Assembly: GCA_021737695.1 (NCBI GenBank)
Contig: JAIPDL010000020.1
Coordinates: forward strand, 1-52,448
Source: Desulfotignum sp.
GTDB lineage: Bacteria > Desulfobacterota > Desulfobacteria > Desulfobacterales > Desulfobacteraceae
DNA: 52,448 bases
Reading direction: 5' to 3'
The notes below the pieces were generated by a model that did no database searches, was not told the DNA's origin, and worked only from the letters and a program-made list of their open reading frames with translations. Shown piece after piece: positions 25,892 to 43,349 of this stretch; the stretch's first letter is position 1, and each line of letters opens with the position of its first letter. The translations under genes and the position numbers were made by a program.

Positions 25892-25951
25892 TACCCACCG
25901 GCCCGATATGATATAACTTTGGCCCATGAAAAACTTTATAAGGATGTGCGC

Positions 25952-27148
25952 ATGACCAGAGACTGGAATTTTGATGAAGAGGTGGACCGGAGCCAGACCG
26001 CTTCCATGAAGTGGGAACCGGAAGTGCTGTCACGGGTTTTCGGCGATGGCAGGGACACGCTTTTGCCCCTGTGGGTGGCGGACATGGATTTCAACTGCCA
26101 CCCGGCCATTCGCAAGGCCATGGAAAAACGGCTGGCCCACCAGATCTACGGGTACAGCCTGAAAGACCCGGCGTATCTGCCATCCCTGATCTCCTGGTAC
26201 CGGCGCAGGCACCAGTGGGAGATCCAGGTACCCTGGGTGCTCACCACCCCGGGCGTGGTGCCGGCCGTCAATTACATCATCCAGCGGTTTTCCCAGCCCG
26301 GGGACAAGGTGCTGATCCAGACGCCGGTCTATTATCCCTTTGCCAGATCCATCCTCAACAACGGGCGGCAGGTGGCGGACAATCCCCTGAAGATCGAGGA
26401 CGTTCACTTCCGGATGGATTTCAATGATCTGGCGGAAAAAGTGAAAGATCCCCGGGTCAAGCTGGCCATCCTGTGCAGTCCCCACAATCCCGTGGGCCGC
26501 GTCTGGACCCGGGAGGAACTGGACACCTTCGGCCGCATCTGTATCGACAACCAGGTCCTGGTGATCGCGGACGAGATTCACTGCGATCTGGTTATGCCCG
26601 GATTCAAACACCTGTGTTTCGCCGCCATTTCAGAAGCCTTTGCACATCATTCCATCACCTGTCTGGCGGCCAGCAAGACCTTTAACCTGGCAGGCCTTCA
26701 CCAGTCCAGCATCATTGTTCCCGATCCGGTGCTTCGCCGGGAACTGCATGCCCAGCTTGAAAACCTGGGCTTCGGTAATGCCGATGGCGGCACCCTGTTC
26801 GGGGCTGTGGCCGCGGCCGCCGCCTACAACGAGGCCGAACCCTGGCTGGAAGACCTGATCCTTTATCTGCATGCCAATTTCACCTACCTGAAGACATTTC
26901 TGGAGACCGAACTGCCCGGCGTCTTTGTATACGAGCTTCAGGGAACATATCTGGCGTGGGTGGATTTCAACGGCCTGGGACTGGCGGAACAGGACCGAAT
27001 CCGGCTTCTGGAGGAACAGGCCGGTGTGGGCCTGGACCACGGGGCCTGGTTCGGCGACAACGGCAAAGGGTTCGAGCGGTTCAACATCGCCTGCCCCCGA
27101 TCCATCCTGGCCCGGGCCGCCGAAGCTATTGTCACGGCGTTTAAATAA
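25952..27148 (+). CDS. MalY/PatB-type PLP-dependent aminotransferase / C-S lyase
   Basis: A 398-residue paralogue of the enzyme at 4601-5797. It has LWVADMDF at 40-47, TPVYYPFARS (124-133), LCSPHNPVGRVW (174-185), ADEIHCDL (206-213) and the PLP lysine in SKTFNLAGL (Lys242). The ATG at 25952 is preferred because it has AAGGA at a good distance; a TTG at 25919 would lengthen it. Third gene after the XRE-cupin regulator. Probably a beta-lyase of cystathionine or cysteine conjugates. Confidence 0.88.
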   Translation: MTRDWNFDEEVDRSQTASMKWEPEVLSRVFGDGRDTLLPLWVADMDFNCHPAIRKAMEKRLAHQIYGYSLKDPAYLPSLISWYRRRHQWEIQVPWVLTTPGVVPAVNYIIQRFSQPGDKVLIQTPVYYPFARSILNNGRQVADNPLKIEDVHFRMDFNDLAEKVKDPRVKLAILCSPHNPVGRVWTREELDTFGRICIDNQVLVIADEIHCDLVMPGFKHLCFAAISEAFAHHSITCLAASKTFNLAGLHQSSIIVPDPVLRRELHAQLENLGFGNADGGTLFGAVAAAAAYNEAEPWLEDLILYLHANFTYLKTFLETELPGVFVYELQGTYLAWVDFNGLGLAEQDRIRLLEEQAGVGLDHGAWFGDNGKGFERFNIACPRSILARAAEAIVTAFK

Positions 27149-27171
27149 CCCGTTCTGCCTATCTCTTTATC

Positions 27172-27215
27172 AGCCGCCTGGTAACTCTGTTGAAATCCGC
27201 TGCGGCTTTTTTTTC
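27172..27215 (+). terminator. probable rho-independent terminator
   Basis: AGCCGC (27172-27177) pairs with GCGGCT (27202-27207), followed by a run of eight T. The loop is long and the stem short, but it ends the operon 23453-27148 in the right place. Confidence 0.45.
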
Positions 27216-27353
27216 AGAAAGAGATTCCGTTCCAGAAAGATCCCGATCCGGTCTGGGTGTGTTATCACCAAATCGGCCAGGCAGACGGGTTCTTTTCTGA
27301 TAACATTTTCATGATAGATCAAATGCCGGGGGGGGTATTACAAATGACGATGA

Positions 27354-30300
27354 TCAGCCCTCCATATACTTATTGAAAATCTGCTCGTGGGAGATGTATT
27401 TTTCCCGATGGTCATCCTGCAGGTATCGGAGGATGGCGTTGACCCGGAGCAGTATTTCCCGCTCGGCCCGCTGGCGCATCCATTTTTTGGTTTGGATGAT
27501 ATCCTCTTTGAGATCAGGGGTTTGATTTTCCGCGTAGTATTTTTCCTTTTTGTAGGTGATCCGTTTTCCGATGAGGGCTTCGCGCATGTCGTTGTGGCCG
27601 TCGTCCAGGACAAGGACTTCGGGCATGAGGTCTGCAAAATGGGTGACGGCGATGATGTCTTTGTCCCGCTGCCAGTAGCCGATGAGGAATTCGGGTTCCA
27701 GGTCCTTGTAATTTTGCAGGGGCATGTACATCCGCCGCAGGTAGAGCAGGACCTTTTCGGTTTTTTTACGGTGGCCGCCGATGATCACCGAGCCGCCGAC
27801 CTCGTCTTTTCGAACCCCCTTGGTCCAGGGGGCGCCCGTGATGCCGAAATCAATGCACAGGGGGATGCGCAGCAGGGCCGACAGGGTGTTCAGCGCCAGG
27901 GCGTAACCCGCCGAGGGGCCGCCCACGTTGTAGGAGGCGGAGAGCAGCTGGTGGTGGAGGGAATAGCGCTGGAGGAAGTCCCCGAAAAGCCAGGGAATAC
28001 TGATGTCCGGGGCCAGCTCCTGGATGTAGTTTTTCACCATGGTCAGGGCTTCCTGGGCCGACTGTTTGGTCATCTGTACGGCCATGTCCAGCTGGGCCGC
28101 GTTGGGGGAGGAGGAGGAGACCGCGCCGGTGACGATGATGGGCTGGCCTTCCACCCGGCCGGTGAGGCTGGTGGCGATGGGCAAAAGCATGCCCGTCATG
28201 TCGTTGGCCCCGACGCCGATGATGAAGCCCACCTGAGGCTCCTGGCTCAGTTCGGTTTCCAGAAACTCGTTGAGCTGGATGCTGCCCTTTCTTACCGGGC
28301 TCTGGGAGATCTCCCGACGGGCCGATTCTAGGTGGGTTTCCACCAGGGGATAATCGGCTTCGTTTTTCACGTGGGCCACGGACTCAAGGACCTGGTCGTA
28401 ATGGGTGACAAAATTCTGCAAATCGTTTTTGATATTGGATTTGAGCAGGGGCGGCGCTTTGACCGCATCCAGGATGCCCAGGATGGTCTTGAAGTTGAGT
28501 TTGACGAAATCACATTTTTCCGGTTCCGTACAGGTGTCCAGGTCCCGCAGCTTCTGGACCACCTTGTACTCGGTGGAGCACAGGGAAATGGCCTTTTCCG
28601 TGAATGAGGTGTAATCGGCCGGCGTGTTGCAGATGCCCTGGGCTGTTTCAATGATTTTTTCCAGCTCGAACTGCCGGGGATGGGGCACATTTCCAAATTG
28701 TTTTTTGATGATGTCGAAAATGTCCTTCTGGCGCATGTGGCCGGTTATTTCCAGGGTCTTGAGCCGCTTGGACCGGATCAGGGCCGGATCCAGGATATCC
28801 AGGCGGTTGGTGGTGAGTACGGTGAACACCTTGTTGAGGGGGATCTCGCCGTCGATGATATTTAAGAATTTATTGGTCAGGACGTCCGAAGGCTGGCCGC
28901 CGGTGCCCGAGCGCTTTGGGGCCAGAGCGTCTCCTTCATCAAAAAAAATGACGGTGGGGGCGATCATTTTGGCGATGTCGTATACTTTTTCCAGGTTGGA
29001 TACGGCGCCATGGACCGGGCTGGTGGGGTCCTGGAGGGCCGACGGAGAGGTGGCGATGTCATGGACCTTGCGGTTGGACGAGAGCCAGGTGCGCACCAGA
29101 AAGGTCTTGCCCGAGCCGGGGGGGCCGGTGAGCACCACGCCCTTGTCTTCGCTGACCCCATAGGTAAAGCAGTTGTTTGCCATTTCCGAGAACTTGTCCT
29201 TGATGCCTCCCACATATTCGTCCCAGGAGACATTGCGGTCCATGCGGTCCACCACCTTGGAGTAGAGTTCGCCGTATACGTTTTTGGCCACCAGCTGGAA
29301 GGCGGACCGGATGAGGATGGCGTTGTCCAGAAATTCCAGGATAAAATCCCCGCGGATATTGATGATGGATTCCACCAGTTTTCTCACGTAGGCCGGACTG
29401 ATCTTCAGGCTTCTTTCGTTGAAGATACTGTAGATTTTTTCAGCGGCCCGGTCAAGTTCGTCGGATTCCGGGGTGTATTTGGTGGGAATCTGGTGGCGGT
29501 TGATTTCCAGGAAAATGATCCGTTTGAGGTTCTCCTTGTTCATCCAGTATTTGGAGATGTCCACGATGCAGCCCTTTTCGACAAACCGGCGGTAAATGGC
29601 CGAATCGAATCGGTGGGCCTGGTCCGAGGTGGCAATGAGAAAACAGTCCCGCCGCCCGTCGATGATCTCGTCCAGAACGATATTGGTGGTGTCGATGAGG
29701 GTCCGCTGCTGTTTTTCCGATCCCCCGCCGCCGGGGCTGCTCTCGGATTTGCCGAAGGCGGAATGGGCCTCTTCGATGTGGCGGATGGAGGTGAACTTTG
29801 GATTGCCCATGGCCCGCTTGAAATAGTTGCCCGGTTCGCCGGACAGGGCGGTCTGGTAATCATTGGGGGTGATGATGGAGGCATCCACCATGATGCCCTG
29901 TTCTTCAAAATGGGTGAGATTGTTAATGATCCGTTTTCGGAAGATCCGGCGCAGGATGGGGATGGCTGTCAGGCGGCGGTAGAAATCCAGTTTCCTTTTC
30001 CGGGCGATTTTCATGGCAAATTCCGGGTCCACATCCTCCAGGGAAGCAAAGAGGCTGTGATCTGCCAGGATCTCTTCTTTTTTACGTCTCCAGTCCACAA
30101 TGGGAATCACTTCGTTTCTGAATACCACCGTTTCCAAAGCCTCCCGCACAGTGGCGCTCTTGCCGCTGCCCGATGAGCCTTCCACGAGCATGATGGGTGC
30201 CTTGGGCACGTCCGGGTCCTCAATATGCTCTTTGCGGATATGGGTCCGGTAGATTTTATCGAACATCTCAGCCAGCTCCACCGGTACATAGAGGTCGGTA

Positions 30301-30668
30301 AGTTCACAGTCCAGCACCGCTATGAGGTAGTGGTATTCGGCTTTGGTCAGCTCCTTTTCGATGATCCGGTTCCATGAGGCGCCGGGGTTGGTTTCACCCG
30401 AGTAGAGGAACCGTTTTTTCCAGTCCCTGAGGATGGCCGGGTTGCTGAGCACTTTCATCTGCTTTTTCTGCCGGCGCATGAAAAAAACCAGATGGCCCAG
30501 GGTCTTTATCCCCGAAATAACCGGATGGGAGGGGCGGTACTGATTCAGGCGGGACCGGACAAAGGCCTTGGTGTCGTAACTCCAGGAAGAGACCATGGCT
30601 TCTATTTTCTTGATGGTCTCCTCGGGCAGGGTAATATAGGTTTTCTGCTTAGTTATTCGTTTGGCCAT
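27354..30668 (-). CDS. double-AAA ATPase fused to a Lon-type protease domain
   Basis: An 1104-residue fusion. AAA module 1 has Walker A GSSGSGKS (164-171), a Walker-B-like IRHIEEAH (295-302), sensor 1 at ATSD (346-349) and RRF (360-362). AAA module 2 has Walker A GPPGSGKT (515-522), Walker B VIFFDEGDAL (573-582) and sensor LTTN (618-621). A helical linker (about 640-800) is followed by a Lon-type S16 domain (about 810-1025) with the catalytic serine in GGPSAG (Ser919). The lysine in IGGHRKK (Lys969) occupies the catalytic position of LonA GGLKEK and LonB GGVTAK. No transmembrane segment is apparent. It is 23 bases downstream of an SPFH protein. Not FtsH, LonA or LonB by architecture. Predicted ATP-dependent protease at the membrane via its partner. 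Confidence 0.8.
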   Translation of the reverse strand: MAKRITKQKTYITLPEETIKKIEAMVSSWSYDTKAFVRSRLNQYRPSHPVISGIKTLGHLVFFMRRQKKQMKVLSNPAILRDWKKRFLYSGETNPGASWNRIIEKELTKAEYHYLIAVLDCELTDLYVPVELAEMFDKIYRTHIRKEHIEDPDVPKAPIMLVEGSSGSGKSATVREALETVVFRNEVIPIVDWRRKKEEILADHSLFASLEDVDPEFAMKIARKRKLDFYRRLTAIPILRRIFRKRIINNLTHFEEQGIMVDASIITPNDYQTALSGEPGNYFKRAMGNPKFTSIRHIEEAHSAFGKSESSPGGGGSEKQQRTLIDTTNIVLDEIIDGRRDCFLIATSDQAHRFDSAIYRRFVEKGCIVDISKYWMNKENLKRIIFLEINRHQIPTKYTPESDELDRAAEKIYSIFNERSLKISPAYVRKLVESIINIRGDFILEFLDNAILIRSAFQLVAKNVYGELYSKVVDRMDRNVSWDEYVGGIKDKFSEMANNCFTYGVSEDKGVVLTGPPGSGKTFLVRTWLSSNRKVHDIATSPSALQDPTSPVHGAVSNLEKVYDIAKMIAPTVIFFDEGDALAPKRSGTGGQPSDVLTNKFLNIIDGEIPLNKVFTVLTTNRLDILDPALIRSKRLKTLEITGHMRQKDIFDIIKKQFGNVPHPRQFELEKIIETAQGICNTPADYTSFTEKAISLCSTEYKVVQKLRDLDTCTEPEKCDFVKLNFKTILGILDAVKAPPLLKSNIKNDLQNFVTHYDQVLESVAHVKNEADYPLVETHLESARREISQSPVRKGSIQLNEFLETELSQEPQVGFIIGVGANDMTGMLLPIATSLTGRVEGQPIIVTGAVSSSSPNAAQLDMAVQMTKQSAQEALTMVKNYIQELAPDISIPWLFGDFLQRYSLHHQLLSASYNVGGPSAGYALALNTLSALLRIPLCIDFGITGAPWTKGVRKDEVGGSVIIGGHRKKTEKVLLYLRRMYMPLQNYKDLEPEFLIGYWQRDKDIIAVTHFADLMPEVLVLDDGHNDMREALIGKRITYKKEKYYAENQTPDLKEDIIQTKKWMRQRAEREILLRVNAILRYLQDDHREKYISHEQIFNKYMEG

Positions 30669-30691
30669 GGACGCCTCCCGGTGGACAATAC

Positions 30692-31663
30692 TTAGGGTGT
30701 TTTTTTCTGGACGTCGGGCTCAGAGGTGCTTTCTGCCGCCTGTTTGTTCTGGAAATGCGGCAGGGTAAGGGCCGGAGGCCCGGTGCTGCCGTGAAGGACG
30801 AATGTTTTCTGATCGCCCTGATTCTTTTCATAGGCCGTGGCCCATTTCTGCTGGGATAGGAATTCAAGCAGGGCCGGGTTCACCCCGCCTTTTTCCGTAC
30901 CGCCAAGGGCCAGGTGAAGGGATCTGATACCGTCAAGGTAGGCCTTGTAGAGCTTGCGGATCCGGTCCGACTCCTGGTCTGCGGCATAGTTTTCCGCTTC
31001 GGCAATGAGCTGGCGCCGTTTTTTCTCCTCCGTGGCTTCCACCAGTTTGTCGCCGAACCGGGTTTCGTTGAGGACGAACGAGATCACCTCTATGCCGTAC
31101 TTGCCTTCCAGGGTGGGGCCGTCCTGGTTGATGGGCCTGTTTTTGAGGGCCTGGAAAATTTTTTCTTTGATGGTTTCACGCTGGGAGATGAGTTTGTTGA
31201 CCTCCTGGCCCTGGAGGATATCCTTGGAAATACCGTCGAAATCGCCCTGGAGCAGAATTTCCGGTGACAGGTTTTCAATGCCCCATTTTTTCAAATCCTT
31301 TATCTTGAATGTCATCAGGGCCGATGTCCACAGGGCCACATTTTCTTCTGAAATAATTTTGATCGGCGCCGATGAGCCGCCCAGGTATATGTTCTGGTTC
31401 ATCAGGGGCACCTCTTTTTCAAGCCTGGTGAAAAAAGGAAGGCGGTAATGCCAGCCCACATCCGTGACGGCCTGGCGCTTGCCCCCGAACTGCTCAAGGA
31501 TGACCGCATAGTTGAGTTTGACCTTGTAGATCACCTGGGTGGAGTAGACCACCGCGGCCAGTGAATAACACACGGCGATAATAACAAGGATAAATGCGGT
31601 GCGCCGGGTCATGGTGATAACCCGCGCCCGCTGGAGAAAAACCTGAGACGTTTGTTCACTCAT
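30692..31663 (-). CDS. SPFH/band 7 membrane protein
   Basis: A 323-residue stomatin/prohibitin/HflK-HflC-like protein. There is a short N-terminus, one transmembrane segment (about 22-42) and an SPFH domain (about 44-230: NYAVILEQFGGKRQAVTDVG, GWHYRLPFFTRLEKEVPL). A helical, charged segment with EATEEKKRRQLIAEAENYA resembles the HflC coiled coil, and the tail is proline-rich. HflK and HflC form cages around the FtsH protease. This protein precedes a double-AAA/Lon protease in one operon, so an analogous scaffold role is inferred. Confidence 0.85.
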   Translation of the reverse strand: MSEQTSQVFLQRARVITMTRRTAFILVIIAVCYSLAAVVYSTQVIYKVKLNYAVILEQFGGKRQAVTDVGWHYRLPFFTRLEKEVPLMNQNIYLGGSSAPIKIISEENVALWTSALMTFKIKDLKKWGIENLSPEILLQGDFDGISKDILQGQEVNKLISQRETIKEKIFQALKNRPINQDGPTLEGKYGIEVISFVLNETRFGDKLVEATEEKKRRQLIAEAENYAADQESDRIRKLYKAYLDGIRSLHLALGGTEKGGVNPALLEFLSQQKWATAYEKNQGDQKTFVLHGSTGPPALTLPHFQNKQAAESTSEPDVQKKTP

Positions 31664-31808
31664 ACCTGCTCCTTTCCCGGAATAAAGGACCCAAATATTA
31701 CAAAAGGATGTCGTGAAACTGCACGTACCGGCTCAACAGGAAATTCAAAAATTTGTATGCGTTATCTGAGACTGATAAAAAAGCATACATGAATCTGGCC
31801 GGATCGTC

Positions 31809-31834
31809 AAAAAAAATATGGGCCACAACGGCCC
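31809..31834 (-). terminator. rho-independent terminator (minus strand)
   Basis: On the minus strand GGGCC and GGCCC (31834-31820) form a stem with a five-base loop, followed by an AT pair and a run of T (about 31817-31809). It lies just after the histidine-kinase-like remnant and before the SPFH gene, so it probably ended the lost gene and now insulates the SPFH operon. Confidence 0.6.
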
Positions 31835-31861
31835 GCAAACCGCAACGTCCAGAACCGCCGG

Positions 31862-31960
31862 TCAGGAAGGGGGTGCTTCCGGCAGGGGATGTTTCATGGT
31901 GAAGACGGTGCCCCGGTCCGGCGCGGGGTCCTCCGGGATGCCCTGGGTCCTCCGGGTTCC
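31862..31960 (-). pseudogene. possible C-terminal remnant of a histidine kinase
   Basis: The minus strand reads GIPEDPAPDRGTVFTMKHPL and ends EAPPS then TGA (31862-31864). This resembles the last residues of histidine kinase ATPase domains (PGRGTTFTIxLP). Nothing upstream encodes the rest of a kinase. A terminator follows at 31809-31834, as expected after a real gene end. Short, so tentative. Confidence 0.35.
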
Positions 31961-32199
31961 GTAAAACGGTCTTTTGAGTTATTGCAATTCAATCGAATTC
32001 CAACAAAAGAATAACCCGGTTCCAACAAACGCCCAACCCTATTTTAACATGGCTCTGGCAGTCTATCCCCTGTTTGACATTCTAAACCCATTGGGCCGTA
32101 TCTGATGGGAGGAATCATTGGCCTGAATGCACGAATTTTTATGGCGAATTCGGGATTTCAGGTGTAACGATAATTATTTTTCAGCAAAAGGGAAAAAAA
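31961..32199. other. upstream region of the porin gene
   Basis: No gene was found. AT-richer patches such as the TTATTGCAATTCAATC region (about 31978-31993) could hold the porin promoter, but no convincing -35/-10 or sigma-54 site was identified. The AGCAAAAGGGAAA just before 32200 serves as the ribosome binding site. Confidence 0.35.
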
Positions 32200-33222
32200 A
32201 TGAAACAGTTTATTTTAGGGATTGCAGCCCTGGCAATGGTCCTGACGGCTGCCATGAACGCAGCGGCGTCAGAATGGAATTTTTACGGGAACGCCAGAAT
32301 CGGAACCTTCTACGAAGATACTGAAATTCCAGGTGGCACCGATACCACCAGTTTCAGCGAATACCTGCATGGCAATTCAAGGGTCGGCGCCAAGGTCAAA
32401 GTCAGCGATCAGCTGCGGGCCCGCTTTGAATACGGCACCGGTGTCAACGTCAGACAGCTCTGGGGGGAATGGAATTTCGGCGGCGGATCACTTCTGGTCG
32501 GCCAGACCTACACCCCGCTTTACATGGGGTACTCCAGCCAGGTGTGGGATGGAGACAACGGGCTTGAAAACTATGGGGCCTGCTCAGTTTCCCGCCGTCC
32601 CATGCTCCAGCTCAGGTTCGGCGGCTTGAAAATCGCCGCTGTTCAGCCGGCTTCCGATGATCTGGGCACAGGCGGTACCGAAGAAATCAGCATGCCGAAA
32701 ATGGAAATCAGCTTCAGCAGTAAGCTCAACAACCTTTCCTATGAAATTGCCGGTGGTTATAACTCTTATGAACTCGGCGCAGGCGGCCTGAGCTATGACG
32801 TTGATTCCTGGGTCATCGGCCTGGGTGCTGAAGTGAAATTCGGTGCCGCTTATCTGGCGGGCAATGTTTACACGGGTGAAAACCTGGGGGCCTATGGCGT
32901 GAAAACCACTTCAGATGCAGATCCGGTTGTTTCCGGCACCACGCTTCTGGATAACAGCGGCTTTGGTTTTATCCTTGTGGGCGGATACAAGTTCAACGAT
33001 ATGGTCACCGTTGAAGGCGGTTACGGCTACGAAGAGTCTGAACTGGACAATGCCGTCCAGGAAGATGATTCCACGTCTTACTACATTCAGGCCAAACTCA
33101 CCCTGGCGCCGGGGGTCTATATCACCCCTGAAATCGGTATTGCAGATCACGGTCAGGACAGTAACGGCGTGGAAGAAGAAGAAACCGTCTATTACGGGTG
33201 CAAGTGGCAGATCAGCTTCTAA
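32200..33222 (+). CDS. outer-membrane porin-like beta-barrel protein
   Basis: A 340-residue protein with a signal peptide (MKQFILGIAALAMVLTAAM, cleavage near AAAS-EW). After that come alternating beta strands rich in Gly, Tyr and Asn (FYGNARIGTFYED, RARFEYGTG, YKFNDMVTVEGGYGYEES) and the terminal aromatic strand CKWQISF, as expected of a barrel recognised by the BAM machinery. It resembles deltaproteobacterial porins. A terminator follows at 33256-33290. Confidence 0.82.
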   Translation: MKQFILGIAALAMVLTAAMNAAASEWNFYGNARIGTFYEDTEIPGGTDTTSFSEYLHGNSRVGAKVKVSDQLRARFEYGTGVNVRQLWGEWNFGGGSLLVGQTYTPLYMGYSSQVWDGDNGLENYGACSVSRRPMLQLRFGGLKIAAVQPASDDLGTGGTEEISMPKMEISFSSKLNNLSYEIAGGYNSYELGAGGLSYDVDSWVIGLGAEVKFGAAYLAGNVYTGENLGAYGVKTTSDADPVVSGTTLLDNSGFGFILVGGYKFNDMVTVEGGYGYEESELDNAVQEDDSTSYYIQAKLTLAPGVYITPEIGIADHGQDSNGVEEEETVYYGCKWQISF

Positions 33223-33255
33223 ACTGAGAATCGGATCTTTCCGCAGCAGTATCTC

Positions 33256-33290
33256 CAGGGCAGTCCCGGACGGGGCTGCCCTGTTCTATT
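33256..33290 (+). terminator. terminator hairpin after the porin gene
   Basis: CAGGGCAG (33256-33263) pairs perfectly with CTGCCCTG (33276-33283), followed by a short T-rich tail. The fossil of the transporter 3' end begins directly after it. Confidence 0.65.
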
Positions 33291-33466
33291 TCACTCCGGA
33301 TCCGGGCATGTTCTTTTTCTGAGATCGGGTAAAAACGGATGAAGGCGATGGACAGGACATTGCACAGGCACGGCACCAGGGCATACAACACCTTGAGCGT
33401 CAGGACCGTGGATGCCGTCTGTGCCGCGTTGGGGCGGTAGCCGGTGCGGCCCAGCAGCGGCCCGAT
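33290..33466 (-). pseudogene. duplicated 3' end of the GPH-family transporter gene
   Basis: About 175 bases repeat 34278-34459 with only a few differences (for example a missing AGC near 33462). On the minus strand it would encode the transporter tail around LTLKVLYALVPCLCN and FYPISEKEHARIR. The copy lacks the rest of the gene. The two copies are direct repeats flanking the HigBA module (33482-34199). Confidence 0.85.
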
Positions 33467-33481
33467 CCTGTCATCGGCAGA

Positions 33482-33883
33482 CTAAATAAACACCGCAGGA
33501 GAAACCCCAAACCGCCGGCTTAAGGCCTTCACCTGCCGTGTGTTCAGACAGCGTTTTCCACTTAAAATTTCAGAGACAACCCCCTGGCTGCCGATTTCCG
33601 TCAGATCCCCCTGCCTGACACCGTGTTCTTCCATTAAATACTTCAGGACATCCGCCGGCGATCCTTCGGGCTCCGGCAGATTGGACGCTTCATAGGTTTC
33701 CACCAGACTGCCGACAGTTTCGATCAGGGAGGCCAGCGGGTGCCCTTCGTCCTCTCCGACTTCCTCCAGAAGACTGTCAAGAAAAGAGACCTGCCGGTCA
33801 TATTCCGCCTCTGAATGGGCCACGGCAAAGATGTTTTTTATATCAGGCCATATCCGGATAATGTCGGTCGCCTCCTGAATCAT
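33482..33883 (-). CDS. higA: HigA-type antitoxin
   Basis: A 133-residue antitoxin: an N-terminal neutralising region, then a C-terminal XRE helix-turn-helix (LKYLMEEHGVRQGDLTEIGS, VVSEILSGKRCLNTRQVKAL). The start ATG overlaps the toxin stop (TGATG), the usual HigBA coupling with toxin first. The HTH probably binds the palindrome at 34183-34199. The product would bind and block the HigB ribonuclease. Confidence 0.85.
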   Translation of the reverse strand: MIQEATDIIRIWPDIKNIFAVAHSEAEYDRQVSFLDSLLEEVGEDEGHPLASLIETVGSLVETYEASNLPEPEGSPADVLKYLMEEHGVRQGDLTEIGSQGVVSEILSGKRCLNTRQVKALSRRFGVSPAVFI

Positions 33884-34173
33884 CAGCCTTCCCTCCATTT
33901 GTTTTGGTCATACGCTTTGTGCGTCAGTACATGCCGGATATACAGCCGCTGTGTGTTGTAATGAACCGCCGCAATCAGCCGGACCTTGTTTCCACCAATA
34001 TTAAACACGGTAAAACCGCCCACCTGATCAGCACTTGGAAAAACGCTTCTCAGTTCTGCAAAATTGCCGAATCCTGTATGCTTCACAATCCGGTACCAGG
34101 CATCCAGGGCAGTAGCACATTCCGGGTGCCTTTCGGCAAAATCCAATAGTTTTTTCCGGGTTATGATGTGCAT
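33883..34173 (-). CDS. higB: HigB-type mRNA interferase toxin
   Basis: A 96-residue RelE-like toxin of the HigB group: AWYRIVKHTGFGNFAELRSV, FTVFNIGGNKVRLIAAVHYN and RLYIRHVLTHKAYD near the end. These toxins cut mRNA on the ribosome. It lies upstream of its antitoxin and just downstream of a perfect operator palindrome. The module sits between two copies of a transporter 3' end, so it entered by insertion or recombination. Confidence 0.87.
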   Translation of the reverse strand: MHIITRKKLLDFAERHPECATALDAWYRIVKHTGFGNFAELRSVFPSADQVGGFTVFNIGGNKVRLIAAVHYNTQRLYIRHVLTHKAYDQNKWREG

Positions 34174-34182
34174 ATTGTTTAA

Positions 34183-34199
34183 TATCTCAATTTGAGATA
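34183..34199. promoter_or_regulatory. HigA operator palindrome
   Basis: A perfect 17-base palindrome, TATCTCAA-T-TTGAGATA, ten bases before the higB start. Position and symmetry fit autoregulation by the HigA helix-turn-helix. Confidence 0.75.
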
Positions 34200-34251
34200 C
34201 ATGTCAAGCATTTTATGTCACAATTCCCATTTTCCGCTACCACGGGTATGG

Positions 34252-35619
34252 TCAGGGCGATTGCTGTCTGCGCTCAATTTTACTCCGGATCCGGGCATGC
34301 TCTTTTTCTGATATCGGGTAAAAACGGATGATGGCGATGGACAGGATATTGCACAGGCACGGCACCAGGGCATACAACACCTTGAGCGTCAGGACCGTGG
34401 ATGCCGTCTGTGCCGCGTTGGGACGGTAGCCGGTGCGGCCCAGCAGCAGCAGCCCGATACCGATCCCAAGCGCCGCGGCCAGTTTCTTGGCGATGGACCA
34501 CAGCCCGATGTACCGCCCTTCCCGTCTCTGGCCGGTCAACAGCTCGTCATAGTCGATCACATCGGCCTGGATGGCGGACGGCAGGGCAAGCCCGGCCCCG
34601 AACCCGATGCCGGACAGAAAGACCAGCACTCCGTAGATGGCGGCATCACCCGGGCCCAGAAAAAAAACCCCGCTGAAAGCCCCGGTATTGATGACCATGG
34701 ACAGGATCCAGGCGCTTTTTTTTCCGGTTTTCCGGGAAACGGCGATCCACAGCGGCAGAAACGCAACCCCCGTGACAAAATAAATCAGCAGGAAAATTTC
34801 CGCATTCCGGGCCTGGAGCACATATTCTACATAATAGAGAATCAGGGTCGCCGGCAGGTTGCTGCCCAGGGCACTGATGGTGTACCCGGCAATCAGGATC
34901 ATGAAGGACCGGTTTTTGACCACATCGGAAAACCCTTTGATGAGATGGTCGGTCATGGGACGGTTGAATTTTTCTTTGATCCGGCAGATGCAGATCAAAG
35001 AAAAGACAACGATCGTGGGGGCAAACAGATATGCCATGATGGAAAACCGCTCCTTTTCCGTGGGCGGTCTGCCGAACGAAGTCATTACCGCATCGATCAG
35101 GACCGGGGTGGCAGCGGCCAGAAGCGTTCCCAGTATCAGAAATCCGTCCCTGATCGAGAACAGCATCGTTCTTTCATGGTAATCCGTGGTCATTTCTGGC
35201 CCCAGAGACTCATACGGAATGGTGATCAGGGTCCAGAAAAAAAACAGGGCAAACAGCCAGAAACCGAAATACAGGGTCATGGCACCGGCTGCCAGCACCG
35301 GGGGCTTGAACAGAAACAAAATGGCTGCGGCAAGTCCCAGGGCCCCGAATGCGATATAGGGCTTGCGCCTGCCGAACCGGCCGGTTGTCCGGTCTGACAC
35401 ATATCCAATTACGGGATCGGTCACGGCGTCAAACAGCCGCACGACCATCAGCAGCGCGCCGACCGTGGCGATGTTCACCCCGATGGTGTCCGTATAGAAT
35501 TTGGGCAGGTACACATACACGGGAATCCCGATCACGGCCAGGGACAGGGCCGGCAGGGCATAGGCAAAAGTATCGGTCCATGACACCTGCCGGTGGCTGC
35601 CGGAGATGGAGTTTTTCAT
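34252..35619 (-). CDS. GPH-family MFS transporter
   Basis: A 455-residue glycoside-pentoside-hexuronide:cation symporter-type MFS protein with about 12 membrane segments. It shows LFDAVTDPVIGYVSDRT and FGRRKPYIAFGALG in the first loop, typical of this family, and IQADVIDYDELLTGQRREG in the second half. Its start overlaps the stop of the chalcone-isomerase-like gene (ATGA). The last 60 codons are duplicated at 33290-33466. Substrate not predictable; in related proteobacterial clusters such transporters accompany lipid-modifying genes. Confidence 0.87.
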   Translation of the reverse strand: MKNSISGSHRQVSWTDTFAYALPALSLAVIGIPVYVYLPKFYTDTIGVNIATVGALLMVVRLFDAVTDPVIGYVSDRTTGRFGRRKPYIAFGALGLAAAILFLFKPPVLAAGAMTLYFGFWLFALFFFWTLITIPYESLGPEMTTDYHERTMLFSIRDGFLILGTLLAAATPVLIDAVMTSFGRPPTEKERFSIMAYLFAPTIVVFSLICICRIKEKFNRPMTDHLIKGFSDVVKNRSFMILIAGYTISALGSNLPATLILYYVEYVLQARNAEIFLLIYFVTGVAFLPLWIAVSRKTGKKSAWILSMVINTGAFSGVFFLGPGDAAIYGVLVFLSGIGFGAGLALPSAIQADVIDYDELLTGQRREGRYIGLWSIAKKLAAALGIGIGLLLLGRTGYRPNAAQTASTVLTLKVLYALVPCLCNILSIAIIRFYPISEKEHARIRSKIERRQQSP

Positions 35620-36206
35620 CGCTGTTTTCCGAGAAGCTTGTCCCGGAACCCCTTGTCTATGGGATTGGCACCGATCCAGATGGAAAACACGGCCCGGGCG
35701 AATTCTGCGCCTTCAATGGTACCGAGGGGGGTGGTATTGTAAGTCAGCAGGGTCCCTGACCCCGGCAGATAGGTCAAGGCATACCGGTCTTTGGGCACCA
35801 CATCCCTGTATAACCGGTTGAGGGCCGTAATTTTGGGCAAGAGTTGCTGAAATTCGGCATCACTGACCGATTCTCTGATCTTTTTTTCCGTGGCTTTGGC
35901 AAAATTCTCCGCTGATATGGCAACGCGGTATTCCAGCACCAGATGTTTGGGAATGTCCTCCAGAGCCCGGGATCCGTCTGCGGTGTCCGGCAGGTAAAGG
36001 GCTCCGGTATAGGCCTCGATGAAAAACATGTATCTGAGCAGGGCCGCCCCCTTAAGATCCAGGCGGGTCTGGTTCACGGTCACGATGTTTGAAAAGGCGG
36101 TTCCGTCCACCATGGTGACGGCGGCATGAACAGTTCCAGGGACGAAAGAAAACACCCACGACCATGCCGCGATAAGTACCATCAATGTCTTTTGCTGAAT
36201 GTCCAT
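35616..36206 (-). CDS. chalcone isomerase-like family protein
   Basis: A 196-residue secreted or periplasmic protein. A signal peptide (MDIQQKTLMVLIAAWSWVF, cleavage near VHA) precedes a bacterial chalcone-isomerase-like domain: GAALLRYMFFIEAYTGALYL, AEFQQLLPKITALNRLYRDV, FSIWIGANPIDKGFRDKLLG. The ATG at 36206 is chosen for its signal peptide; upstream ATGs at 36242 and 36251 are possible. Bacterial members lack a proven flavonoid role and are found with fatty-acid-modifying genes. Middle gene of the SDR, CHI-like, GPH operon. Confidence 0.78.
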   Translation of the reverse strand: MDIQQKTLMVLIAAWSWVFSFVPGTVHAAVTMVDGTAFSNIVTVNQTRLDLKGAALLRYMFFIEAYTGALYLPDTADGSRALEDIPKHLVLEYRVAISAENFAKATEKKIRESVSDAEFQQLLPKITALNRLYRDVVPKDRYALTYLPGSGTLLTYNTTPLGTIEGAEFARAVFSIWIGANPIDKGFRDKLLGKQR

Positions 36207-36247
36207 TGCATCCCCGCTTAAATTATTTTCTTTCAGTTTCATCGGTT

Positions 36248-37318
36248 TCATGGCAGCTCGAAGACCAGGCCGTGCAGTTTCTGCCACAGGGCCTGCCGTT
36301 CCTTTTCGGTCTCCCTCGTGCCGGGAAACACCACTGTCTCATGGGGACGTCTGTCCAGCCAGAACCGTCCCGTGGACCGGGCCGCAGTTTCTGACAAGGC
36401 CAGCCAGATCATAGTATCCGCCCCCTGCTCAGGGGTCCTCAACTGGTTGCCGACCAAAGAATGAAATCCGGGCAGCGACCGTTGAATCCCCGGTGTATCC
36501 ACCCAGCCCGGGTGCATGGCATGAACGGCGATCCCCTTCTTTTTCAGCTCCTTTGCCCAGATCCGGGTCAGGATGACCACCCCCCGTTTGGCCCGGGCAT
36601 ATGCTTTTGCCCCGTTATAGGGCGGTTGTCTGTTTTCCAGGTCATCCACCGCGATTTTCTGGGTATACATGCCGCCGGAGGACACATTGATGATCCTGCC
36701 GGAAGAACGGGCAAGGGATTTTTTCAACAGTTCCGTCAGGTAAAACACCCCCAGCAGGTCCGTGGCAAACGTCTGCTCAAACCCTTCCGAAGTTTCCTGG
36801 CGCTCATTGAATAGGGCCCCGGCATTGTTGATCAGGATATCGATGGATTTTTTGGTGTCCCGCAGCTGTCGGGCCACCTGTTTGATGTCCTGCATCCGGC
36901 CCAGATCGGCCAGCATGACATCGACATGGGGGTTGCCGGTCCTGGTGATGATGTCCTGCTGCACCTGTTCCGCCTTTTCCCGGTTCCTGGCAATGATCGT
37001 CAAAAACGCCTTTTTTTCCGCCAGCATGACGGCGGCCGCTTTTCCGATGCCGGACGTTCCTCCGGTCAACACCACCTTTCTGCCGTAAAGGGTTCCGCCC
37101 GGTTCTGTCCAGAACCGCCGGCTCAATTCATACCCGAACCGGCTGAACATCAGCATGCCTGGCACAATGGCATGGTCAGCCAGAAAATCCAGCCAGCCGG
37201 TGCCGGATTGGAAGCAGTGATTTCCTGCGCCTTGTTTTTTAAGGTTTCCGGTATCAAGAGCAGGGCCGGAATCCGGTTTGTCCGCCTGGTTTTGTCTGGG
37301 GTGTTCGCGTCGTGTCAT
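36248..37318 (-). CDS. short-chain dehydrogenase/reductase
   Basis: A 356-residue SDR. An extended N-terminus of about 80 residues precedes the Rossmann motif VVLTGGTSGIGKAAA. NNAG is in ILINNAGALF. NVSSGG holds the catalytic serine and AYARAK the catalytic Tyr and Lys. It resembles DHRS12-type reductases acting on lipids or aldehydes. The ATG at 37318 has GAAAGG as ribosome binding site; a GTG at 37333 would add five residues. First gene of the operon ending with the GPH transporter. Confidence 0.82.
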   Translation of the reverse strand: MTRREHPRQNQADKPDSGPALDTGNLKKQGAGNHCFQSGTGWLDFLADHAIVPGMLMFSRFGYELSRRFWTEPGGTLYGRKVVLTGGTSGIGKAAAVMLAEKKAFLTIIARNREKAEQVQQDIITRTGNPHVDVMLADLGRMQDIKQVARQLRDTKKSIDILINNAGALFNERQETSEGFEQTFATDLLGVFYLTELLKKSLARSSGRIINVSSGGMYTQKIAVDDLENRQPPYNGAKAYARAKRGVVILTRIWAKELKKKGIAVHAMHPGWVDTPGIQRSLPGFHSLVGNQLRTPEQGADTMIWLALSETAARSTGRFWLDRRPHETVVFPGTRETEKERQALWQKLHGLVFELP

Positions 37319-37452
37319 CGGGCCGCCTTTCACTGTGTCTGAAAGTGTTATATAAACCTTATTATGGACATGTTTTATCAGACTTCAATACCGCAAAAAA
37401 ATGTGTATACTGTTTGTGTGTTTTAAACTGATAATCAATTTGGAGGACGTCA

Positions 37453-38352
37453 ATGATCCGATTCGGCCTTTGCTGCATCTTCAGGGAACATCCGGTTGCC
37501 TTTCGCAGAACCACTGCAAAATACCTTGCCCGGTTTTCCGAACAGGAACGGTTGAAACGTATTGCAGAACTGTGTGCCCATAACGCAGAAAGCCTGCAAA
37601 AAGCCCTTGTCTTCTGCCGGGAAAACGGGATCGGTGATTTCCGGATAAACAGCCAGATCCTTCCTTTGAAAACCCACCCGGAGATGGGATACGATATATT
37701 TGATCTTCCCGGTGCCGAAGAGATCATCGCAGGGTTCAGGGCCTGTGGTGAGTTTTGCCTGACGCATGATATCAGAACCACTTTTCACCCGGACCAGTTT
37801 ATTATTCTGTCATCGCCGAAACCCGACGTGGTCCAGAGGTCCGTGGCAGATCTGGTTTACCAGGCCCAGGTGGCTGAATGGGTCAATGCGGATGTGATCA
37901 ACATTCATGCCGGCGGGGTGTATGGGGACAAACCATCGGCGCTATCCCGCATGGCAGGCGCCGTCGAAGCCCTGCCGGATCCGGTCAGGAAACGGTTGAC
38001 CCTTGAAAATGACGACAGAAGCTATACCCCGCAGGACCTGCTCCCCGTGTGCCGAGATCTCACCATTCCTCTGGTGTATGACGTACACCACCACCGTTGC
38101 CTTCCGGACGGCCTGTCCGTGGAAGCAGCCACAGACCAGAGCATGAAAACCTGGAACCGGGAACCCCTGTTTCACATCTCTTCTCCCAGAGACGGCTGGT
38201 CCGGGCCCGATCCCAGAAAACACCATGATTACATCGACATCCGTGACCTGCCCAGAGACTGGCTGTCCATGAATATTACCGTGGAGATAGAGGCAAAGGC
38301 CAAAGAGCTGGCCATAAAAAAAATGATGGCAGAACTAAAGAGGGTCCCGTGA
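37453..38352 (+). CDS. uvsE: UV damage endonuclease UvsE
   Basis: A 299-residue UVDE/UvsE TIM-barrel nuclease that nicks DNA 5' to UV photoproducts and other lesions. It has the N-terminal RFGLCCIF, FRINSQILPLKTHPEMGYD, the metal-ligand segments TFHPDQFIILSS and NIHAGGVYGDK, LTLENDDRSYTPQDLLPVC and PLVYDVHHHRC. The ribosome binding site GGAGG is at 37442-37446. A weak -10-like TATACT lies at 37406-37411. Length normal. Confidence 0.9.
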   Translation: MIRFGLCCIFREHPVAFRRTTAKYLARFSEQERLKRIAELCAHNAESLQKALVFCRENGIGDFRINSQILPLKTHPEMGYDIFDLPGAEEIIAGFRACGEFCLTHDIRTTFHPDQFIILSSPKPDVVQRSVADLVYQAQVAEWVNADVINIHAGGVYGDKPSALSRMAGAVEALPDPVRKRLTLENDDRSYTPQDLLPVCRDLTIPLVYDVHHHRCLPDGLSVEAATDQSMKTWNREPLFHISSPRDGWSGPDPRKHHDYIDIRDLPRDWLSMNITVEIEAKAKELAIKKMMAELKRVP

Positions 38353-38444
38353 AACCCGGTCTTATGGGGAATGTTTCATTTGATGTCAGTCTCAAAATGA
38401 TTGCAGGACATGTTCCTGGCTTTCCGGCCCGGGTGAATGTCCGG

Positions 38445-38963
38445 TTAACAATCAGATTCCGGCGCAATGGGTTTGAATTTTTCCTGCGGCATACCGCATA
38501 CCGGGCATTTTTTGGGTGCTTTTTTATCCGTTACATAGCCGCATACCTGGCAGACCTGATAGGCGGCCACATCTTTTTTCATAGACTGAAAAATGGCGCG
38601 TTCATATAACTTGGCGTGGTATTCTTCCGCATCCCGGGCCTGGGAAAAAACGATGGCCGCCGATTTTTCACCTTCATCTTCCGCGTCTTTCAGAAAATCC
38701 GGATATTCATTTGTGCTGATGGATTTTTCCCGTTCAAAAGAGGCTTCCAGATTGGTGTCCGTATCTTTGACAACAACATCTTTCATTAAATTAAGATTAC
38801 GCGTGGCATGCACCCGTTCCCCCTCGGCAATGGCCCGAAACAAAAGTGCTATCTGCTGGTTTCCCTCTTCCTCTGCCTTGTCAGCATAGGCCAGCAGCCG
38901 GAAATACGCTTTGGCTTCCCCTACAAATGCGGTTCGAACATTTTTTTGTGTTTTTTCTTTCAT
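38445..38963 (-). CDS. rubrerythrin-family protein
   Basis: A 172-residue rubrerythrin: a ferritin-like diiron domain (FVGEAKAYFRLLAYADKAEE, AEGERVHA, EEYHAKLYERA), then a rubredoxin-like iron site CQVCGYVTDKKAPKKCPVCG with the CxxC-x-CxxC pattern. Such proteins reduce peroxide in anaerobes. The ATG at 38963 is used; an in-frame start at 38999 adds a poorly conserved stretch. Convergent with uvsE. Confidence 0.88.
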   Translation of the reverse strand: MKEKTQKNVRTAFVGEAKAYFRLLAYADKAEEEGNQQIALLFRAIAEGERVHATRNLNLMKDVVVKDTDTNLEASFEREKSISTNEYPDFLKDAEDEGEKSAAIVFSQARDAEEYHAKLYERAIFQSMKKDVAAYQVCQVCGYVTDKKAPKKCPVCGMPQEKFKPIAPESDC

Positions 38964-39066
38964 TTTTCCCCCGTTATTTTTTATCCGACCCGGACCCACT
39001 TACTGGTGACATTTTTTTACAGAAAACTGTCAGTTAAATCAAGCGGAAATGATTGTTACTGTGCTG

Positions 39067-40005
39067 TTAATCGAGCCGTATATCTGCCTGTTTCCTCCGG
39101 GCCTCATGATAAATCCGGTGGGCCGCTGCCAGGTCGATCCCTTCGAATGAAAGGGTGTCACCCGGGGTGGTCTGGGCCAGTTTTGGAATGTCGGTGGATA
39201 TGACCGTGGCAATTTTGGCATACCCGCCCACGGTCTGTTCCACCAGCAGGATGATGGGCTGTTCGTCCGCCGGGATCTGGATACCCCCGGGCATGGAAGG
39301 TTCAGACACAATACTTTTGGGCATGCCGGGCCGGATGGGGATTTTTTCTCCCATCAACCGGTATCCCATGCGGTCCGCCTTGGGGGTGACCATATATTGG
39401 CTGGTGAATAAAGCCGTCATTTTCGGATCAAAATAGTCATTCTGGGGGCCGGGGACAACTCTTAGCACCACATGGGAAGGATATTCCGGGATCATGTTTT
39501 CGGGCATTGCCAGATCACGGGTCAGCAGTGGGACTTCACGGGCATCCAGGATATCCCCGATCTTCAGGGGCCGGCCCTGGTATCCGCCAAGACCGCCTCC
39601 CACATAGGTGGAAAAAGATCCCATGACCCGAGGGACATCGATGCCGCCGGACACCGCCAGATAGGCCCGGCATCCCGACCGGACCTGGGAGAGGGTCAGT
39701 ACATCATCCGGTCCCACCCGCATGGACCGCCATTGCGCCATGGGCCGGCCGTTCAGGGTCATGTCCATTTCCGCCCCGGTGACGGCGATTTCCAGAGGAG
39801 CGAAAAATCGTAAGGACGGGCCGGTGACCGTGATTTCCAGCACGGCAAGGGAGTCGTCGTTGCCCACCAGACGGTTGGCCATGTCTGCGGCAAAGGTGTC
39901 CAGGACCCCGCAGATCGGGACTCCCATCTGCTGAAACCCGAACCGTCCCTTGTCCTGGACCGTGGTGAACCCTCCCGGAGAAACCACTTCAAACGCCTGC
40001 ATCAC
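39067..40005 (-). CDS. pxpC: 5-oxoprolinase subunit C / AHS2-type carboxyltransferase
   Basis: A 312-residue KipA/AHS2-family protein: FEVVSPGGFTTVQDKGRFGF, MGVPICGVLDTFAADMANRL and YLAVSGGIDVPRVMGSFSTY, then GGIQIPADEQPIILLVEQTV near the end. With AHS1 (PxpB) it forms either 5-oxoprolinase (with PxpA) or the carboxyltransferase half of urea-carboxylase-like enzymes. The start overlaps the pxpB stop by four bases. Last gene of the minus-strand operon. Confidence 0.88.
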   Translation of the reverse strand: MMQAFEVVSPGGFTTVQDKGRFGFQQMGVPICGVLDTFAADMANRLVGNDDSLAVLEITVTGPSLRFFAPLEIAVTGAEMDMTLNGRPMAQWRSMRVGPDDVLTLSQVRSGCRAYLAVSGGIDVPRVMGSFSTYVGGGLGGYQGRPLKIGDILDAREVPLLTRDLAMPENMIPEYPSHVVLRVVPGPQNDYFDPKMTALFTSQYMVTPKADRMGYRLMGEKIPIRPGMPKSIVSEPSMPGGIQIPADEQPIILLVEQTVGGYAKIATVISTDIPKLAQTTPGDTLSFEGIDLAAAHRIYHEARRKQADIRLD

Positions 40006-40709
40006 CCACCTTCCTTTCCAGCCAGCCGGTCATATTCCGCCAAAGAGATAGGCACGAACCGGATCTTGTCTCCGGCCCGGTACAGAAACGGATTTTCTCT
40101 GTCCGGCGCAAACAGGTTCAGCGGGGTCCGGCCGATAACCTGCCACCCCCCCGGGCTGGTAATGGGGTACATGCCGGTCTGGTTGTTGGCGATGCCCACC
40201 GATCCTCTGGGGACACGGGTGCGGGGGGTTTTGAGCCGGGGGGTGACCAGCCGGTCGTCCAGTCCCCCGAGAAATGCGAACCCCGGGGTGAACCCCACCA
40301 TGTAGATCAGGTATTCCGGGGCACTGTGGATTTGGATCACTTCCTGCCGGGACAGGCTTGCATGTTGCCCGACCGTATCGATGTCCGGGCCGAACTCCCC
40401 GCCATAGCACACCGGAATTTCCACCACCCGGACCGCTTGGTCATCCATGGCGGCCCGGTCAATATCCAGGGTCTCCATCACCTCAAACAGCCGGTCGGGA
40501 TGGGTGACAGCCGGGTCATAGATGAACAGCAGGGACCGGTAGGTGGGAATCACTTCCCGAATGCCGGGTACCGGATCTGCCTCCAAAGCCCTTGCCACGG
40601 CCCGGACCCGGGCATTGACCTGCGGGTCGATGCCTTCCCCGAACTCTGCCAGAAATCCGGTATCCCCGGCCAGGCGGCAGACGGGTCTGTCAAAAATCTG
40701 CGTGGTCAC
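40002..40709 (-). CDS. pxpB: 5-oxoprolinase subunit B / AHS1-type protein
   Basis: A 235-residue KipI/AHS1 protein: DTGFLAEFGEGIDPQVNARV at the start, EIPVCYGGEFGPDIDTVG, YMVGFTPGFAFLGGLDDRL and VPRGSVGIANNQTGMYPITS. It pairs with PxpC (ATGA overlap) and starts three bases after pxpA. In a carboxylase-linked setting it would be half of the carboxyltransferase. Confidence 0.9.
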   Translation of the reverse strand: MTTQIFDRPVCRLAGDTGFLAEFGEGIDPQVNARVRAVARALEADPVPGIREVIPTYRSLLFIYDPAVTHPDRLFEVMETLDIDRAAMDDQAVRVVEIPVCYGGEFGPDIDTVGQHASLSRQEVIQIHSAPEYLIYMVGFTPGFAFLGGLDDRLVTPRLKTPRTRVPRGSVGIANNQTGMYPITSPGGWQVIGRTPLNLFAPDRENPFLYRAGDKIRFVPISLAEYDRLAGKEGG

Positions 40710-40712
40710 GGA

Positions 40713-41483: not shown

Positions 41484-41503
41484 GTTTTTTTACCTTGCTT
41501 AAA

Positions 41504-42814: not shown

Positions 42815-43317
42815 TACACCACCTCCTCTTTGGTGCGGATGGCCTGCCAGGTTTTGACGGTGGTGGCGGCCAGCTGGATGAAAAACATGGCCGCCCCTGC
42901 CAGCATGACCGTCTGGGGAACCCACAGGGGGGTGTTGGTGAGGGTGCCGGAGGTGGAGTTATACCGGATGGCGGAGCCGACCATTTTAAACAGGTACCAC
43001 CACAGATATCCCATGAACACCGTGGTTACACAGGTGGCGGCACAGGTGATGACCCGGGCGGCCGTTTCCGGTAAAAATCCCAGGATCAGGGTGATCCGGA
43101 TGTGCCCTTTTTCCTTGAGGCAGTAACCCGCTCCCAGAAAAATAATAGCTGCCAGGCCGTAGGCGCTGTATTCGTCCGCTATCAATGTGGTTTTTTCAAA
43201 CAGGTTCCAGAGGGTTATTTCCACCAGGATGAGCACGGTCATCAATCCCAGCAGCACGGCTGACACCCCAGCTGTAATATCGCTCAGCCGGTCCGACCAT
43301 TTTACAAGGGTATGCAT
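42814..43317 (-). CDS. dctQ: TRAP transporter small permease (DctQ family)
   Basis: A 167-residue membrane protein with four segments and the DctQ elements DEYSAYGLAAIIFLGAGYCL and KEKGHIRITLILGFL. It is coupled to dctM. It follows dctP by 110 bases, a gap that contains the hairpin at 43350-43401. Confidence 0.88.
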   Translation of the reverse strand: MHTLVKWSDRLSDITAGVSAVLLGLMTVLILVEITLWNLFEKTTLIADEYSAYGLAAIIFLGAGYCLKEKGHIRITLILGFLPETAARVITCAATCVTTVFMGYLWWYLFKMVGSAIRYNSTSGTLTNTPLWVPQTVMLAGAAMFFIQLAATTVKTWQAIRTKEEVV

Positions 43318-43349
43318 TGTATCTCCAGAAAATTATGGGAAGTGCCGGT

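Follow-up and report, generated by a model that had tools for sequence, protein, structure and literature searches.

Results

An SPFH gene is followed by a gene for an AAA-AAA-Lon protein

Two genes lie 23 bases apart on the minus strand of a 52,448-nucleotide stretch of DNA from Desulfotignum sp. (contig JAIPDL010000020.1, positions 1 to 52,448; the window hereafter). The first (30692..31663) encodes a 323-residue protein of the SPFH (Band 7) family, assigned from its open reading frame, its Band_7 match and a Foldseek search. The second (27354..30668), delimited by its open reading frame, the short gap and its Pfam domains, encodes a protein of 1104 residues that has a Lon-type S16 protease domain after its two AAA modules, and which we refer to as AAA-AAA-Lon. 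A first-pass annotation of the same DNA had described a band 7 protein with one membrane segment and, after it, an 1104-residue protein in which two AAA modules are joined to a Lon S16 domain, and both descriptions held when the open reading frames, the Pfam domains (Band_7, AAA and Lon_C), the hydrophobic segment and the conserved motifs of module 1 were examined.

From its N terminus, AAA-AAA-Lon consists of a helical region that is seen in the model and has no Pfam match (residues 1-144; 30237..30668), a divergent AAA module 1 (approximately residues 145-440; 29349..30236), a Cdc48-like AAA module 2 (residues 498-716; 28521..29177), the S16 domain (approximately residues 800-1019; 27612..28271) and an extension that is helical in the model (approximately residues 1023-1104; 27357..27602), all on the minus strand.

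The two genes are kept, and lost, together

The window and three homologue sets (of 40, 9 and 80) provided 130 AAA-AAA-Lon loci, which encode 109 distinct proteins, some genomes being present in both collections. An SPFH gene lay directly upstream on the same strand at 129 of these loci, with a gap between the paired genes of -71 to +202 bases. At the lone exception (L169), only 2 bases precede the protease gene before the contig ends. As the arrangement is conserved in 109 distinct proteins, chance is excluded, and the linkage is near-obligate. The expectation of the first-pass annotation that the SPFH partnership is kept was thus borne out: homologues do not lack the preceding gene.

The same picture emerged from 291 genomes of the class, in which the protease was matched in 72 and the SPFH protein in 65, all of them within the 72. 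Both genes were therefore present in 65 genomes, SPFH alone in 0, an incomplete protease alone in 7, and neither in 219 (Fisher test, 2e-57, uncorrected for relatedness). The weakest of the 65 SPFH matches was 3.9e-157, and nothing fell between this value and the limit of 1e-40. The seven protease-only genomes comprise three with remnants (G064, G179 and G062), one in which the match begins at base 3 of its contig (G199), one whose match covers residues 69-1100 and whose contig is apparently that of L169 (G287), and two with parts of the protease gene (G183 and G285). Trees of 107 SPFH/protease pairs were also similar, with a distance r of 0.93, 66 of 104 splits in common and 4 strongly supported conflicts.

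Broken remnants of the pair were found at L204 5000-6350 (G111), L205 4700-5415 (G064), L206 4870-6261 (G179) and L207 4422-4721 (G062). In G179 both genes have decayed together, and the remnants in G064 and G179 adjoin a FloA-type operon. The pair decays as a unit.

The paired AAA modules look closest to those of p97/Cdc48

Column conservation was counted over 59 aligned AAA-AAA-Lon proteins, which include the window copy and extend down to about 48% identity. In module 1 the Walker A residues (G164, G167, G169 and K170), E299/E300 and R360/R361 were invariant (59/59); across the protein the same is true of the Walker A lysine in each module and of the paired arginines (59/59). The motifs of module 2 are Walker A K521, Walker B D577 and E578, N621 and R632/R635. 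Module 1 also carries the stretch [YF]QTA[LWYF][AS]GE, in which position 275 is [LWYF] and is followed by [AS]GE, while in module 2 position 552 is hydrophobic and is followed by [DEH]G. Positions 275 and 552, which we take to fit the pore-loop motif, look like pore loops.

Pfam AAA matched the protein at 8.6e-25 (best stretch 511-637), and the phmmer match of module 2 to p97 AAA domains (3.6e-39) was the best among the matches listed. NCBIfam pointed the same way for TIGR01243 (CDC48; 2e-23), albeit with 82.6 bits under a cut-off of 802.65. The scores for TIGR01241 (FtsH; 53.4 against a cut-off of 600), TIGR00763 (LonA; 36.4 of 608) and TIGR00764 (LonB; 33.9 of 516.6) were also low, so that AAA-AAA-Lon satisfies no NCBIfam model and lies far under the cut-offs for CDC48, FtsH, LonA and LonB. 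Module 1 was assigned from its conserved columns, the model and the double-ring alignment described below; its sequence profile found nothing convincing in the PDB (the best matches were P-loops, with Cdc48 at 0.16), and a profile-profile comparison of module 1 with module 2 gave no match (Prob 0.07).

The AlphaFold model of AAA-AAA-Lon had a mean predicted local distance difference test score (pLDDT) of 76 and a predicted template modelling score of 0.56. When the monomer model was searched with Foldseek, all 50 matches listed were double rings of p97, Cdc48, Rix7 or NVL. The alignments span 553-731 columns and, judging by this length, since residue ranges are not given, probably cover both modules. 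Template modelling scores to the query were low (0.18-0.28), as would be expected if the module orientations are off in the model. Together with the motifs, these matches indicate that AAA-AAA-Lon has two AAA modules in cis, as Cdc48/p97 does, and its double motor looks most like p97/Cdc48. The best 19-residue window of the protein has a mean Kyte-Doolittle value of 1.47, which is no clear membrane segment, and an HExxH zinc site was found in 0 of the 59 proteins. With its two AAA modules, the protein is therefore neither FtsH nor LonA/LonB, as the first-pass annotation had argued.

The S16 domain has a conserved Ser-Lys pair with unusual spacing

Pfam Lon_C matched residues 801-991 at 9.9e-5, with 22.4 bits barely above the cut-off of 21.1. 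In a profile-profile comparison, hhalign aligned the S16 region with 21 LonA S16 domains over 221 columns (Prob 98.6, E 1e-14), compared to Prob 0.04 and 0.40 for two control pairings. A hidden Markov model search of the PDB with the same region returned archaeal Lon S16 structures (1xhk, 5.8e-6). The S16 region thus matches Lon in every one of these profile checks.

Ser919, the predicted nucleophile, lies in the motif GGPSAG (codon 27912..27914, minus strand), and the predicted catalytic lysine is Lys969 (codon 27762..27764, minus strand). Both had been noted as apparently intact from this one sequence, and both are invariant (59/59); GGPSAG and IGG are invariant or nearly so in the same proteins. 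Lys969 lies four residues past the second Gly of IGG, as does the LonA lysine in the genome's own LonA proteins. The separation differs, with 49 residues between Ser919 and Lys969 in 59/59 proteins against 42 counted in L196, a LonA sequence of the same genome, and exactly 42 in LonA and LonB according to the accessible text of PMC9569914. The seven additional residues sit between the TG and IGG motifs.

A protein with such a domain might be mainly an unfoldase, extractor or disaggregase, its S16 domain being inactive, self-processing or purely structural. The domain is very divergent, as its Lon_C score shows, its spacing is 49 residues instead of 42, and it is modelled poorly, with pLDDT <50 at residues 813-866, 903-919, 950-954 and 959-963. 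Nevertheless, we consider this explanation improbable, as Ser919, Lys969, GGPSAG and IGG are invariant or nearly so in the 59 proteins, and an idle site need not be. Ser919 and Lys969 are best described as a predicted catalytic pair; because of the poor model and the longer spacing, catalysis is not assured.

The SPFH protein has one predicted membrane segment

Pfam Band_7 (PF01145) matched residues 48-231 of the SPFH protein (30971..31522, minus strand) at 6.3e-15, with 56.1 bits against a cut-off of 23.6; no NCBIfam model was matched. The protein has one hydrophobic segment, which starts at residue 22 and has a mean Kyte-Doolittle value of 2.44 over 19 residues. This single predicted membrane segment (residues 22-40; 31544..31600, minus strand) falls within a helix at residues 4-42 of the predicted structure (pLDDT 82). 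Ahead of it lies a basic tail (residues 1-21; 31601..31663, minus strand), predicted to be cytosolic from charge counts, in which Arg12 is invariant (69/69 proteins). Lys and Arg residues are more numerous before than after the segment in 62 of these 69 proteins, equally numerous in 6 and fewer in 1. This excess therefore favours an N-in topology, with the SPFH domain outside. A Foldseek search with the model placed 7vhq_G first (6.4e-13), followed by stomatin, prohibitin and HflK/C-FtsH entries; 7vhq_G is an SPFH-family microdomain entry, which we take to be HflK/C.

The genome has two further, adjacent Band_7 genes elsewhere. It (G000) also has an unusually rich Lon set, with nine Lon_C matches, of which four are LonA-type and one has a GDSAS site and is presumably of the LonB type. 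Given these separate Band_7 genes and the Lon set, the pair is an addition and not a replacement.

The absence of a clear membrane segment from AAA-AAA-Lon would suit a soluble housekeeping protease for which the SPFH protein is a looser regulator, anchor or client, with no protease-bearing cage. Prohibitin, whose tie to the mitochondrial AAA proteases is possibly transient, offers a parallel: in the accessible part of PMC12624060, human PHB1/2 is not stably co-purified with AAA proteases. We regard this arrangement as unlikely, since linkage is strict, just these two genes are lost and apparently transferred jointly, and soluble work could fall to the four LonA-type proteins of the genome.

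The window copy appears to have been acquired

The window has a block in common with G213, a genome of another genus (27358..31921, minus strand; blastn). The block holds both genes and 258 bases upstream of them, with 87.8% identity over 4582 columns, and within 57 kb around the G213 copy it is the only part of the window that matches. Among same-genus genomes the closest two, G131 and G193, both lack the pair. Where the window has a 21.9-kb stretch that contains the pair (25895..47817), these two have 3.94 kb of different DNA, as judged by blastn and the lengths. The window is collinear with G131 and G193 on either side, at 21386-25894 (22318-25894 in the compared piece of G193) and 47818-52448. 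The leuC-like gene and the gene for an 849-residue protein in the window are 93-96% identical to those of G131/G193, compared to 80% and 68% for G213.

In the tree, the window copy groups with G213 and G215 (99), apart from the same-genus genomes G039, G121 and G231 (100). The nine other members of the genus of G213 fall into a further clade of their own, so that no one donor is singled out. At the FloA locus, which is the site of the pair in G121, neither the window's genome nor G131 or G193 retains a remnant, and only about 0.3-0.4 kb stands there instead. The simplest account seems to be that the pair was lost at its old site and regained at a new one in the window's genome, and the window copy appears to have been acquired. 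A chimeric or misbinned contig may lie behind the apparent transfer, a reading that depends partly on draft assemblies; both flanks of the 21.9-kb stretch do agree with G131 and G193. Base composition was not foreign (0.552 for the pair, 0.549 for the surrounding 21.9 kb, 0.539 for the right flank and 0.558 for the G131 replacement).

A separate part of the window, 1-21385, looks like an island of its own. Its guanine-plus-cytosine content is 0.40-0.47 in most 2-kb steps, compared to 0.51-0.60 past 21 kb, and it has no blastn match to the G131 piece next to the collinear block. Its genes include those for a TRAP transporter, biotin carboxylase, MmgE/PrpD and an antiporter.

The pair is patchily distributed and its neighbours differ

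Genome searches were centred on Desulfobacterota, within which the pair occurs patchily. Relatives of the protease were found in the 72 of 291 genomes given above and in 42 of 277 genomes in the class of G413. Phylum-wide, 12 of 395 genomes had a match at E <1e-130, nine of these genomes belonging to four families beyond the class. The next-best match was at 3.3e-9, and 42 of the 54 matches listed were this weak, mostly to open frames of ordinary Lon size. A scan of 84,980 species genomes with two eight-residue patterns gave 168 stretches that encode a relative. Details cover the best 80 of these 168, among which 78 carry titles with the name of a deltaproteobacterial group or genus (some of the genera being presumably so placed) and two read 'Proteobacteria bacterium' and 'bacterium'.

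Neighbour families were identified by Pfam on one representative each. Across 108 loci, some of these neighbours are scaffold or protease genes of the membrane: FloA, accompanied by an NfeD1b protein, at 10 loci, rhomboid at 8 and Band_7_1 at 5. The last is an SPFH protein with zinc ribbons, and at L034 3874-6322 and similar loci it is followed by a zinc-ribbon-like protein, present near the pair at 8 of 108 loci, just upstream of the pair.

In the window, the neighbouring genes that were tested encode a porin, an aminotransferase, 3-isopropylmalate-dehydratase-like proteins, transporters, other metabolic proteins and a HigB-type pair. The HigB-type toxin gene lies beside a helix-turn-helix (antitoxin-like) gene at 33482-34173 on the minus strand, inside the 21.9-kb stretch missing from G131 and G193. 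Further along, 39067-47755 holds genes for CT_A_B, CT_C_D, LamB/YcsF, a TRAP transporter (DctM and DctP), a GntR regulator, a biotin carboxylase and creatininase-like proteins, kinds that partly repeat those at 1233-10894. Scans of the window gave 0 Rfam matches and 0 tRNA genes. One sigma-70-like promoter site at 31810-31782 was not used, as 5 such sites were found in the region against 3.2 expected by chance.

Patchy spread (72/291 and 42/277 genomes) and apparent transfer into the window's genome would also be seen for a phage-defence or other mobile accessory system, and there were weak PADLOC matches, the best to IetA (5.7e-11). However, these matches fall on stretches of generic AAA or P-loop character, none involves the SPFH protein, and the tested neighbours are mostly metabolic, which makes such a role very improbable. 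As candidates in their own right, a defence system and a mobile plasmid or phage gene were both rejected. In the former case PADLOC and PHROGs matched AAA/P-loop stretches only, plus a marginal phrog_15585 match over S16 (0.00099). In the latter, 368 plasmid and 32 phage records matched and 0 covered 80% of the query. A full-length relative was found in 0 of 77 candidate viral contigs.

Discussion

The AAA-AAA-Lon and SPFH proteins bear comparison with several known systems. As in FtsH-HflK/C and m-AAA-prohibitin, an SPFH assembly would be combined with an ATP-dependent protease in what is probably an inner-membrane role; in contrast to both, this protease combines a Ser-Lys S16 domain with two AAA modules, lacks HExxH and a clear membrane segment, and is paired with one SPFH gene, not two. 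Two stacked Cdc48-type AAA modules and a tie to membrane SPFH proteins recall p97/Cdc48-proteasome and Erlin1/2, which the accessible text of PMC12624060 links to p97-driven endoplasmic-reticulum-associated degradation. Here, by contrast, the protease is of the Lon type and fused in cis, and the locus has no ubiquitin or proteasome part. An S16 domain with a Ser-Lys pair is common to LonA, LonB, LonBA and LonC, and a Pro precedes the Ser as the available text reports for LonA. LonA and LonB differ in having a single AAA+ module and, in the same partial source, 42 rather than 49 residues between Ser and Lys, and LonB has a membrane anchor or insert in its AAA+ module for which AAA-AAA-Lon has no clear hydrophobic segment. 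Like QmcA-YbbJ and FloA-NfeD, the latter even a neighbour of the pair at the 10 loci above, this is a two-gene SPFH unit; unlike them, its SPFH partner is an AAA protease and not NfeD, and FloA belongs to another protein family. By the tests made, the pair is a member of neither HflK/C-FtsH nor Erlin-p97, and we propose that it may work like them, HflK/C guiding FtsH to membrane-embedded substrates in the accessible text of PMC12048511.

The reading we prefer, with a probability of about 0.6, is that the pair is a two-gene membrane-associated ATP-dependent protease system, in which an SPFH ring is combined with a p97-like AAA-AAA-Lon as a compact parallel to Erlin-p97-proteasome. The SPFH protein would sit in the inner membrane by its one N-terminal segment and form a ring or cage, its bulk most likely periplasmic and its short basic tail in the cytosol, and this ring would mark a patch of membrane. 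AAA-AAA-Lon would assemble in the cytosol as a hexamer whose two AAA rings are stacked in the manner of p97/Cdc48 and end in a protease ring of the Lon Ser-Lys type. It would be recruited to the SPFH ring, probably through the conserved SPFH tail. It would act on substrates that are probably membrane proteins, misfolded or in surplus, or else aggregates attached to the membrane; these would be drawn through the two rings and cleaved in the chamber fused to them. The component parts and their conservation, the near-obligate linkage, the similar trees, the joint loss and an apparent joint transfer are seen in the data, and together with the scaffold and protease neighbours at some loci and the parallels of HflK/C-FtsH and Erlin-p97 they favour this scheme. 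We infer the oligomers, the contact between SPFH protein and protease, the topology, the activity and the substrates in this scheme, and joint action of the two proteins at the membrane, like a role in stress, is suggested on the same footing.

Several points weigh against this. Interaction and activity of the pair are predictions from sequence, and both the Ser-Lys spacing, seven residues longer than the 42 of LonA/LonB, and the poorly modelled S16 domain count here too. For the other two Band_7 proteins of the genome, the Lys+Arg count favours neither orientation (1 vs 1 and 3 vs 3), so that the topology of the SPFH protein is an inference only; if its SPFH domain is periplasmic, as in HflK/C, whose ring encloses FtsH, just some 20 residues could meet a cytosolic protease. 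In the sequence-profile search with the SPFH protein, the nearest chains were stomatin (0.0042) and QmcA (0.027), both weak, and no HflK/C chain was among the matches listed. Finally, the neighbours vary, with no third gene in more than 17 of 108 loci.

Beyond the first-pass annotation, the analysis brought out the p97/Cdc48-like motor, the unusual Ser-Lys spacing, the extra Band_7 pair, the four LonA-type proteins and the apparent acquisition. No description of the pair was found in one open-access library, subscription papers, preprint servers and supplements being outside the search. The accessible part of an SPFH survey (PMC2636767) has 12 subfamilies and names no Lon partner, and that of a serine-protease survey (PMC2605481) includes no Lon architecture with two AAA modules. 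A broader and more tentative proposal, to which we give somewhat less than even odds, is that SPFH and AAA-AAA-Lon together make up an SPFH-protease assembly of a third kind, alongside FtsH-HflK/C and SPFH-NfeD. It would be a self-contained bacterial counterpart of SPFH-scaffolded, p97-driven extraction, with unfoldase and chamber in one polypeptide, a new Lon site geometry, and a two-gene unit that is kept and passed on.

What would this mean for SPFH proteins and their proteases? If true, the pairing of SPFH with a protease arose, or re-arose, with a different enzyme (serine-lysine as opposed to zinc, and a double as opposed to a single ring). A long-open question, the contribution of SPFH rings to proteolysis, would become testable. 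Reconstitution should be much simpler for a system of two genes than for Erlin-p97-proteasome. The fused p97-like motor and Lon chamber would also be a useful model for how a double ring hands its substrate over to a protease.

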